From Geomonas agri (GTDB lineage Bacteria; Desulfobacterota; Desulfuromonadia; Geobacterales; Geobacteraceae): a DNA stretch of 64,000 bases. The stretch lies in assembly GCF_020179605.1 (NCBI RefSeq), contig NZ_JAINZO010000001.1, forward strand, positions 2,392,799-2,456,798, read 5' to 3'. How positions within the stretch are numbered: position 1 is the stretch's first letter; every line of letters starts with the position of its first letter. This document shows, piece by piece, positions 21,828-24,315 of the stretch. Below the pieces are notes generated by a model, which was not told the origin of the DNA, did no database searches, and saw nothing but the letters and a program-made list of their open reading frames with translations. Both the position numbers and the translations under genes were made by a program.

Positions 21828-23612
21828 TCAGCCTGCGACACTCAACGGTTTGCATCCTTCGTCCGGGGCGGCGAACCGCTTCATGTAGCCGGTGAAGTCC
21901 TCCCCCGGCATGGGGGAGGCGAAGTAGAATCCCTGCGCCTCGTCACAGCAGCGCTCCACCAGGAATTCGAGCTGGGCGTCGCTCTCGACCCCCTCCGCGA
22001 TCACCTTGAGCTTCAGGCTGTGGGCCATGGAGATGATCGCCGCGGCGATGGCAGCGTCGTCGCTGTCGGTGACCAGTTCAGCGATAAAGGAGCGGTCGAT
22101 CTTGATGGCGTCGATGGGGAAGTGTTTCAGGTAGTTGAGCGAGGAATAGCCAGTGCCGAAGTCGTCGATGCTCAATCGCACCCCCATCTGCTTCAGGGCC
22201 TGCAGCGCGTCGATATTCTTTTCGGCGCGCTCCATGATGACGCTCTCGGTAAATTCCAGCTCCAGCGAGCTGGGACGAACCCCGGTCTCCTCGATGACGC
22301 AGGCCACCGTCTCCAGGAAATCGGGCTGCCGGAACTGCCGCCCCGAGATGTTGACTGCGACCTTGAGCCCCGGGAAGAAGGCGTCCCACTGCACGGCATG
22401 CATGCAGGCCTCCCTCAGCACCAGGTCACCAAGTTCGAAAATGAAGCCGCAGGACTCGGCAATAGGGATGAACTCGTCCGGTCCGACCAGGCCGAACTCG
22501 GCGCTGTGCCAGCGCAGAAGCGCCTCCGCGCCGGTCAGGCGCAGGGTCTTCAGGTCCCACTGGGGCTGGAAATAGAGGTAGAACTCCCCCCGCGCCAGCC
22601 CCTGGCGCATCCCGTTCTCCAGCGCCACACGGCGCATGTTCACCTGGTTCATCTCCTGGGAGAAGAACTGGTAACCGGCCTTTCCCTCGCTCTTGGCCTG
22701 GTACAACGCGGCGTCGGCGCTGCGCAAGAGGCTCTCCACGTCGCGGCCGTCCTCGGGGAACAGGGCAATGCCGATGCTGGTGCTGCCGTAAACTTCCTCC
22801 CCGTCGATAAGGAACGGCTCGGTGAAGAGCGCCTGCAGCCTGGCGGCTGTTGCCGCCACCCCTTCGTCCCCTGGGACCGGGTTGATCACGATGACGAACT
22901 CGTCGCCCCCCAGCCGCGCCAAGGTGTTCGATTCGCACAGGCACCCCGCCAGCCGGGCCGCCACTTCCTGCAGGAACTTATCACCTATTTCGTGTCCCTT
23001 GGAGCTGTTCAGGTCCTTGAAGTTGTCCAAGTCGAGAAAGAGAAGCGCCAGCTCGCGCCGCTCGCGCTGGGCAAGGGCAAGTGCCTGGTGCAGACGGTCC
23101 ATGAGCAGCGTCCGGTTGGGAAGCTTGGTGACGCTGTCGTAATAGGCGAGGGTCTCCAGTTGTTGCTCGCAAAGCTTGCGCTGGGTCATGTCTTCGCAGG
23201 CGGTCAGCATGCCCAGGTATTCGCCGCCGGCATTGCGGATCGGGAGCGAGGTGAGCTGAACCGGGAAGATCATACCGTCCTTGCGCAGGTTGAGTCCCTC
23301 GCGCTTCCAAAGCCCAGCGGTGCGCTGGTTGATGCGCCGGGCGGCTGTTTGCCCCTCGGGCGCCAGGACGCGCGCCGGCCTGCCGACCAGCTCTTCCCGA
23401 GCGTAACCGTGCATCTCCGCCTCGGCACGATTCACGTAGACGATTTTGCCCTCCCTGTCGCTGATGGTGATCCCCGCCGAGATGGGAAGGAAATCGATAG
23501 CCTCCTTCAGCATCGCCAGACGCTCCTCGTCCTGCTGCAGTGGGTTCAGCAACTGCAGGGAGCCGGAACCCAGCTGCAAACAGGTTGGTAGGTCGTTAGT
23601 CGCATCGTGCAT
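21828..23612 (-). CDS. PAS–GGDEF–EAL cyclic-di-GMP turnover protein under riboswitch control
   Basis: 594 residues from ATG 23612 (AGGAG 8 nt upstream). PAS (about 25-145), GGDEF (about 155-320) with an intact LGGDEF active site, and EAL (about 330-580) with GAEALLRW, NISGRQF and DDFGTGYSS intact. No RxxD inhibitory site precedes GGDEF. The residue matching the guanine-contacting Asp of PleD is kept (NSSKGHEIGD), whereas Hypr cyclases that make 3',3'-cGAMP have Ser/Thr there. So this is expected to make and/or degrade c-di-GMP. A GEMM riboswitch and terminator lie about 140 nt upstream. No membrane helix seen; cytoplasmic. Confidence 0.93.
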   Translation of the reverse strand: MHDATNDLPTCLQLGSGSLQLLNPLQQDEERLAMLKEAIDFLPISAGITISDREGKIVYVNRAEAEMHGYAREELVGRPARVLAPEGQTAARRINQRTAGLWKREGLNLRKDGMIFPVQLTSLPIRNAGGEYLGMLTACEDMTQRKLCEQQLETLAYYDSVTKLPNRTLLMDRLHQALALAQRERRELALLFLDLDNFKDLNSSKGHEIGDKFLQEVAARLAGCLCESNTLARLGGDEFVIVINPVPGDEGVAATAARLQALFTEPFLIDGEEVYGSTSIGIALFPEDGRDVESLLRSADAALYQAKSEGKAGYQFFSQEMNQVNMRRVALENGMRQGLARGEFYLYFQPQWDLKTLRLTGAEALLRWHSAEFGLVGPDEFIPIAESCGFIFELGDLVLREACMHAVQWDAFFPGLKVAVNISGRQFRQPDFLETVACVIEETGVRPSSLELEFTESVIMERAEKNIDALQALKQMGVRLSIDDFGTGYSSLNYLKHFPIDAIKIDRSFIAELVTDSDDAAIAAAIISMAHSLKLKVIAEGVESDAQLEFLVERCCDEAQGFYFASPMPGEDFTGYMKRFAAPDEGCKPLSVAG

Positions 23613-23752
23613 GGGGTCTCTCCTGCCGCCGGCCTGGCCGTGGCATGAACGTCTGGATTGACATAAAAGGCGATGGTGAGGGAGTAGGTGGTAGCCAGCT
23701 CCCGTGGCAGGGCGCACGGGGCAGGCTTAGGACAACGTCATTAGAAGCGGGC

Positions 23753-23811
23753 AAAAAAAAACGGGTTGCCGGTATCTTAGCTGAACCTGTGCTAGATATT
23801 TCGGCAACCCG
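23753..23811 (-). terminator. Riboswitch-controlled terminator ahead of the GGDEF-EAL gene
   Basis: On the minus strand CGGGTTGCCG (complement of 23802-23811) pairs with CGGCAACCCG (complement of 23762-23771), followed by nine T (23753-23761). Its 5' arm is the 3' part of the GEMM aptamer, so the two structures exclude each other. This predicts ligand-dependent antitermination (an ON switch). Confidence 0.85.
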
Positions 23812-23879
23812 GCTGTCTCAGGGAGACCCTTGGGCTTTCCGTCCCACCCTCGCGGATGGTTTAGTATTATCGTTTATCT
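23794..23879 (-). ncRNA. GEMM-I riboswitch (Geobacter type, probable 3',3'-cGAMP/GEMM-Ib)
   Basis: Read on the minus strand the segment contains AAACCATCCGCGAGGGTGGG, then ACGGAAAGCC, a variable hairpin, GACAGCCGG and GTTGCCG: the conserved GEMM-I core. A short P1 helix (AGATA at 23875-23879, TATCT at 23794-23798) closes it. The residue aligning with G20 of the Vc2 c-di-GMP aptamer is A (AATACTAAACC), the change that marks cGAMP-selective GEMM-Ib riboswitches described from Geobacter. Family membership is clear. Ligand choice is inferred from hand alignment. Confidence 0.88.
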
Positions 23880-24027
23880 TTTTCCGGTGCTGTCCGTTCT
23901 GGCGCGCTTCGGAATAGGCGAGCCGCCCTTTCCCGATTGTCTCCGGCAGCCGTTGCTGCCCTTGCCATCGCGTAGAAGGTTTAACCAGATGGGGAGGGAA
24001 ATGTCAAATGAAATCAACCTTAGGTAG

Positions 24028-24315
24028 GGAGGACCCTGGGCAGGTTTCCCCCAGGCCAAGATCCTCAAGGCAACCGAGACCAAGCGTTTCCGTCGGCTGG
24101 ACAGCCAGGAGGACGTCGAGGCCAACGTGCGCATTACCGCGACGCACCAGGTACTCCCTCGGATGGTCACGGACAGCAAGTTCCGCGTCGACCTCTTTTC
24201 CAGGCTTAATGTCATGAACATCTGCTTGCCGAGACTTCGGGACCGCAAGGAAGACATCGAGTCGTTGGTGCAGTACTTCTTCGAGACGCTGAACGAGGAG
24301 TACGTCAGGTCGTGA
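24028..24315 (+). pseudogene. Remnant of a sigma-54 activator AAA+ domain
   Basis: After a TAG at 24025, one frame reads about 95 codons resembling the middle of an NtrC-type AAA+ domain: QAKILKATETKRFRRLDSQE, DVEANVRITATHQ, then FRVDLFSRLNVMNICLPRLR and DRKEDIESLVQYFF. Walker A, Walker B and GAFTGA parts and the whole DNA-binding end are missing. A nine-codon ORF (ATG 24001) with a GGAGG-like site directly precedes it. It is a decayed fragment, possibly of a once intact regulator. Confidence 0.7.

Follow-up and report, generated by a model that had tools for sequence, protein, structure and literature searches.

The locus described here lies within a 64,000-nt stretch of the Geomonas agri genome (the window) and comprises a GEMM-I riboswitch aptamer, an intrinsic terminator, and a gene encoding a PAS-GGDEF-EAL protein (Table 1). 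The original prediction, which left the strand unstated, placed a complete GEMM-I core over a strong terminator about 140 nt ahead of a PAS-GGDEF-EAL gene; all of these elements were recovered, with the aptamer, the terminator, and the gene on the minus strand. A cmscan search of the whole window returned a full-length covariance-model match to RF01051 (GEMM-I) running from 23875 to 23800, with 49.7 bits against a gathering threshold of 35 and an E-value of 1e-6. The 5' arm of the terminator is the 3' end of the aptamer, and the hairpin that it forms has a predicted folding energy of about -26 kcal/mol and is followed by nine T. Pfam identified the PAS, GGDEF, and EAL domains, and 140 nt separate the U-tract from the ATG.

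Table 1. Features of the riboswitch locus, in window coordinates.
Feature	Position	Strand	Evidence
Candidate sigma-70-type promoter (TTGACA, then TTAAAC)	23978..24007	-	Located some 100 nt before the aptamer
P1 5' strand AGAUA	23875..23879	-	Predicted pairing with 23798-23794 when 95-105 nt of the leader are folded
GEMM-I aptamer, inferred cGAMP (Ib) type	23800..23875	-	RF01051, 49.7 bits; 11/11 listed 4YAZ contacts
Specificity residue A (Vc2 G20; 4YAZ A14)	23865..23865	-	Rfam alignment, contact list
P1 3' strand UAUCU, common to aptamer P1 and terminator stem	23794..23798	-	Predicted fold
Intrinsic terminator	23753..23811	-	5' arm 23811-23802, 3' arm 23771-23762, U-tract 23761-23753
Ribosome-binding site GGAGAG	23618..23623	-	Conserved in the window and 4/4 named Geomonas
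PAS-GGDEF-EAL gene, 594 aa, ATG start	21828..23612	-	Pfam domains; start by conservation
PAS domain	23181..23477	-	PF13426, E 2.5e-15
GGDEF domain	22680..23147	-	PF00990, E 1.2e-44; GGDEF motif 22910-22896
EAL phosphodiesterase domain	21912..22610	-	PF00563, E 1.2e-73; EAL motif 22526-22518

Comparison with four named Geomonas genomes revealed a conserved protein start, MHDAT or MHDAA, with GGAGAG upstream. A longer N-terminus initiating at the GTG at 23717 was ruled out because the ATG start at 23612 and its GGAGAG are conserved. Within the GGDEF domain, the Asp that is replaced in Hypr synthases had been reported as retained, and it was indeed found as Asp-211 (22982-22980); the equivalent residue is Asp in all 13 members of the clade of switch-bearing homologs described below. 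Because this base-binding Asp is kept, assignment of the window enzyme to the Hypr group was rejected. The Hypr synthases GacA and GSU1937 share its GGDEF fold but carry Ser/Thr at the base-binding position.

The EAL motif together with Asn, Glu, Asp-Asp, Lys, Glu, and Gln, which we take to be the catalytic residue set of EAL enzymes, is intact in 13/13 members. The cyclase residues, namely GG(D/E)EF, the metal Asp, and the equivalents of N335 and D344, are intact in 12 of the 13 and lost in the diverged homolog L086. An RxxD product-inhibition I-site is present in many, though not all, active diguanylate cyclases, and GGDEF domains that have ceased to act as cyclases often lack it. In the window protein this site is lost (Cys-226 and Asn-229), and across the clade Cys, Ser, or Gly occupies the Arg position in 12/13 members, with none retaining both Arg and Asp. 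The best matches of known structure were the GGDEF-EAL proteins 4RNH (E 4e-130) and 5M3C (E 1e-120), which share the GGDEF-EAL order and the EAL catalytic residues with the window protein; they differ from it in that its I-site is lost. 4RNH and 5M3C correspond to MorA and MucR, dual-activity c-di-GMP enzymes. Both are membrane proteins, which the window protein, judged by eye, does not appear to be.

Alignment of the aptamer to the Rfam model showed A in the specificity column, which is G20 in Vc2 numbering (A20 hereafter). This agrees with the residue named in the original prediction: A rather than G was found in the window and in all 13 clade members. In the Geobacter structure 4YAZ, cGAMP is contacted by G8, A11, A12, U13, A14, C15, A41, A42, G74, C75, and C76 (PMC7288161). 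We transferred the 4YAZ numbering from this residue list alone, aligning A14 with the G20 column of Vc2; the whole list, up to G74 to C76 at the 3' end, then fell in register on the 76-nt window aptamer without an indel. All 11 listed contacts are identical in the window aptamer, and likewise in 13/13 clade members.

The genome as a whole (4.68 Mb, seven contigs) contains 20 GEMM-I aptamers above the cut-off. Eleven carry A at the specificity column, ten of them with 11/11 of the 4YAZ contacts and one with 10/11; the other nine carry G20 and have 5 to 8 of the 11. The same model as in this genome-wide search gave RF01051 matches in none of 14 control genomes. A chance resemblance of the RNA was ruled out by the RF01051 score, the control genomes, and a reversed A20 pattern that occurred 0 times in 48 genomes.

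From A20 and the pocket residues, we infer that the window RNA is of the GEMM-Ib type and prefers 3',3'-cGAMP. The Geobacter GEMM-Ib switches used for comparison (Gs1761 upstream of pgcA, Gm0970, and 4YAZ) resemble the window RNA in A20, the 11/11 listed contacts, the overlapping terminator, and the ON layout. Many A20 switches of Geobacter have been described as favoring cGAMP and activating genes with it. The preference of Gm0970 for cGAMP was reported as about 1600-fold (PMC8835794), the A20G change makes Gm0970 c-di-GMP-selective, and deletion of gacA lowers the transcripts behind GEMM-Ib switches (both from PMC6456294). A20 alone is no proof of cGAMP selectivity: an A-variant Desulfobacca aptamer gained affinity for c-AMP-GMP, while its affinity for c-di-GMP may have dropped only slightly (PMC9481103), and the G. 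sulfurreducens omcST switch responds to both ligands (PMC6456294).

To follow the fold of the leader, we extended it in growing lengths. An aptamer closed by P1 (AGAUA/UAUCU) was predicted at 95-105 nt, the terminator stem began at 115 nt, and it was complete at 125 nt. A second AGAUA is located on the 3' side of the terminator and competes with P1. All 13 homologs have a hairpin followed by a T-run (7-9 T), with predicted energies between -20.5 and -27.2 kcal/mol. The terminator arm overlaps the aptamer and the two predicted folds are exclusive, a layout that predicts a transcriptional ON-switch; from this overlap and the stepwise folding, transcription would therefore be expected to stop without ligand and to read through with ligand. 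A generic promoter/terminator scan listed no terminator at the locus, its rule covering loops of 3-8 nt and the loop here being 9 nt.

The same scan listed no promoter at the locus. The sigma-70-type motif upstream of the aptamer is a weak candidate promoter; it recurs in eight of the 13 riboswitch-bearing homologs and is absent from the other five. Just upstream of the promoter region, on the plus strand (24058-24312), we noted the fragment FRVDLFSRLNVMNICLPRLRDRKEDI, perhaps a gene remnant. It seems to resemble the AAA+ part of a sigma-54 activator.

Homologs were surveyed in 48 genomes of the family, 19 of which belong to the genus (G. agri included). An ortholog at a minimum identity of 72% was present in 12 of the 19 genus genomes, G. 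agri among them, and an A20 switch lay directly upstream in 12/12. The diverged homolog L086 (56% identity), from a 13th genus genome, also has an A20 switch. These 13 homologs form one clade with support of 100/99 in a tree built on 443 of 886 columns. In that tree, the branch leading to L086 is marked as long and its position may be unreliable, resolution outside the A20 clade is incomplete, and L087, L200, and L201 were left untrimmed at the GGDEF start with their longer N-termini included. The four named Geomonas species encode close relatives with 86-91% identical proteins; their loci (L021-L024) repeat aptamers already in the survey and were not counted again. The aptamer RNA is under strong constraint, as it is 96% alike among the 12 orthologs versus 53% for the linker and 62% for the 60 nt upstream.

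Outside the A20 clade, 108 nt separate the ATG of the homolog L083 (genome G036, from another genus) from an upstream G20 aptamer of the c-di-GMP type. This UAU-like GEMM-I aptamer (L083:597-672) precedes an 899-aa open frame encoding GGDEF-EAL, with receiver and PAS domains recognized by eye. No riboswitch was found upstream of six further homologs (in G035, G024, G018, and G046, and the second homologs in G026 and G036), nor upstream of the three more distant homologs L088, L090, and L091. The RNA and the enzyme are each of a known kind. Their pairing is conserved and seems to have a single origin, and it looks new.

To judge how unusual this pairing is, we examined the genes downstream of A20 switches. 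Of the 48 family genomes, 47 contain the A20 core pattern, with 408 sites in total; variant A20 sites such as L006 escape it. The survey covered 128 loci from 17 genomes (160 core copies, 156 distinct sites), mostly reaching about 3.3 kb downstream, with less than 1.5 kb in 7/108 loci, and used a GGDEF profile from 33 seeds and an EAL profile from one seed. A GGDEF/EAL gene followed the switch in 2/108 loci of one set and 0/20 of the other, both cases belonging to the window family (the window itself and L086). These counts do not support a common role of A20 switches in controlling c-di-GMP enzymes. A control GGDEF profile derived from the homologs alone recovered 29/29 GGDEF loci of the G. 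agri genome. A motif search for the HD-GYP pair, run without a positive control, saw none downstream of A20 sites in either locus set.

According to a review, c-AMP-GMP variants control gene types different from those of c-di-GMP switches (PMC7266159). In the literature covered, the named targets of the Geobacter GEMM-Ib switches are genes for cytochromes, pili, polysaccharides, lipoproteins, and regulators, in contrast to the c-di-GMP-type signaling enzyme of the window. A cGAMP switch on a c-di-GMP enzyme was not found in the literature searched; the supplementary locus lists of Kellenberger 2015 and Nelson 2015 lay outside that search and may name the locus or its relatives.

The direction in which the enzyme acts was addressed by comparing its domains. 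The GGDEF and EAL domains are equally conserved among the 12 orthologs (86% each), with median dN/dS values of 0.13 for GGDEF, 0.17 for EAL, and 0.32 for PAS. On sequence grounds this equality leaves the direction undecided among these orthologs, and since GGDEF is intact in 12/13 members and as conserved as EAL, the cyclase function could be important in the main lineage. L086 combines a decayed cyclase (GTDQF, N335 to L, G369 to T, E371 to Q) with an EAL domain in which every residue checked is retained; compared with the other members, it is 51% identical in GGDEF and 70% in EAL. Breakdown of c-di-GMP, rather than unspecific turnover, is the more likely output because L086 lost the cyclase motif and kept the EAL residues and the switch, an argument that comes from one row on a long branch. 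The original suggestion that a cGAMP signal may switch on c-di-GMP turnover is thereby supported by A20, the contacts, and the Asp in 13/13, and narrowed towards breakdown.

Our preferred reading, to which we assign a probability of roughly 0.6, is that a cGAMP ON switch drives the PAS-GGDEF-EAL protein, whose main output would be c-di-GMP hydrolysis, and so closes a loop of mutual antagonism with GacA. Without ligand, the strand that ends the aptamer would pair into the terminator and the transcript would halt. With cGAMP bound, the aptamer would retain this strand, RNA polymerase would continue, and the protein would be made. The EAL domain would then hydrolyze c-di-GMP as its main output, while the GGDEF domain could have a regulatory (GTP-binding) or minor cyclase role. 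Falling c-di-GMP would release GacA and lead to more cGAMP, a positive loop.

The I-site of the cGAMP synthase GacA mediates its inhibition by c-di-GMP, so lower c-di-GMP should raise cGAMP. In Geobacter, where this inhibition was described, an I-site mutant of GacA had 30x cGAMP and an esnD deletion 3x (PMC6456294). A plasmid-borne c-di-GMP-degrading gene raised cGAMP in G. metallireducens from 8.68 to 13.41 pmol/mg; at odds with a simple scheme, some predicted cGAMP-activated genes in this species rose in a strain whose c-di-GMP was higher and cGAMP lower (PMC12285248). In a G. sulfurreducens strain whose cGAMP reporter was altered, the GGDEF-EAL gene GSU0946 had lost 11 bp, a deletion for which the authors suggested a possible rise in c-di-GMP and inhibition of GacA (PMC8835794).

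A GacA homolog is encoded in the G. agri genome; it has the receiver-GGDEF architecture, Ser, and RxxD, and its best PDB match is 6D9M. GacA homologs with Ser and RxxD were found in 12/12 relatives searched. Besides the window enzyme, three GGDEF proteins of the genome have Ser, Ser, and Thr at the Hypr position and are candidate cGAMP synthases: the GacA homolog itself, a protein that is GSU1937-like by motif (HAMP, GGDDF, Ser), and L064 (C2:101615-102085), a 400-aa GGDEF protein with Thr at the Hypr position and an intact GGDEF motif.

Opposite signs of the loop would follow if cGAMP induced net c-di-GMP synthesis, or if the protein were a PAS-gated dual enzyme: cGAMP would raise c-di-GMP, which inhibits GacA, and the loop would be negative. 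The intact GGDEF motif, metal Asp, and N335 and D344 equivalents of 12/13 members, under constraint equal to that of EAL, are compatible with such an enzyme, loss of the I-site would release its cyclase from product inhibition, and the nearest solved relatives are of dual activity. However, I-site loss is also frequent in non-cyclase GGDEF domains, and the 13th member lost GGDEF residues while retaining the switch and every EAL residue examined, so we regard this alternative as unlikely. Degradation of cGAMP itself by the EAL domain would amount to plain negative feedback on the inducing signal, and feedback through a ligand-degrading enzyme is common riboswitch logic. The close alignment of the EAL domain with 4RNH and 5M3C, presumably enzymes acting on c-di-GMP, argues against it. 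In addition, the cGAMP phosphodiesterases known to us are HD-GYP enzymes, and we consider this explanation very improbable.

The switch could instead sense c-di-GMP, or both ligands, in the cell, which would make the locus an ordinary c-di-GMP feedback. Genes that make, degrade, or respond to c-di-GMP signals lie downstream of many GEMM-I switches (PMC7266159), dual-specific A-variant switches are known (PMC6456294, PMC9481103), and L083 pairs a homolog from another genus with a G20, c-di-GMP-type switch. Such c-di-GMP-I (GEMM-Ia) switches before c-di-GMP turnover genes resemble the window in the RF01051 fold and the downstream gene type, as in the L083 arrangement. They differ in having G at the specificity residue where the window has A, and in the window the sensed signal should differ from the one turned over. 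A20 and all 11 listed cGAMP contacts occur in 13/13 members, the A20G change converts Gm0970 to a c-di-GMP switch (PMC6456294), and c-di-GMP can be served by the genome's nine G20 aptamers; an ordinary feedback therefore appears quite improbable.

In electroactive bacteria, c-di-GMP and cGAMP signaling may either be kept apart or be allowed to compete. In the literature covered, the link is one-way, with c-di-GMP inhibiting GacA, and the locus is a candidate for the reverse link in the form of a single conserved gene with its own RNA sensor. More tentatively, cGAMP-driven c-di-GMP hydrolysis could form one arm of a toggle: cGAMP would induce a c-di-GMP phosphodiesterase and c-di-GMP would block GacA, so that the cell would settle into one of two states, one governed by cGAMP (transiently attached, particle-reducing) and the other by c-di-GMP (biofilm). 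The new arm would have been gained a single time, at the root of this enzyme clade, when a GGDEF-EAL gene became linked to a cGAMP-type switch, whereas L083 in another genus has a c-di-GMP-type switch in its place. If the reverse link is true, Geomonas would be a natural case of two second messengers in mutual antagonism.

Other switches in the G. agri genome also touch on both signals. At C2:174657-173586 (L028, L015, L005, L004), a cGAMP-type switch precedes a hemerythrin gene, and about 720 nt past this switch two tandem c-di-GMP-type switches precede a 2378-aa open frame, so that successive genes here may respond to the two signals. An A20 switch at C1:165549-165473 (L013, L036) lies before a gene for an MshEN-receiver protein (PF05157, PF00072). 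MshEN is described as a c-di-GMP receptor domain (PMC5013675), and this switch may be a second cGAMP link to the c-di-GMP network. Paired A20 switches were observed at C1:807965-809453 and C1:1920636-1922626 (L040, L039), located before successive genes that by eye resemble surface or lipoprotein genes.
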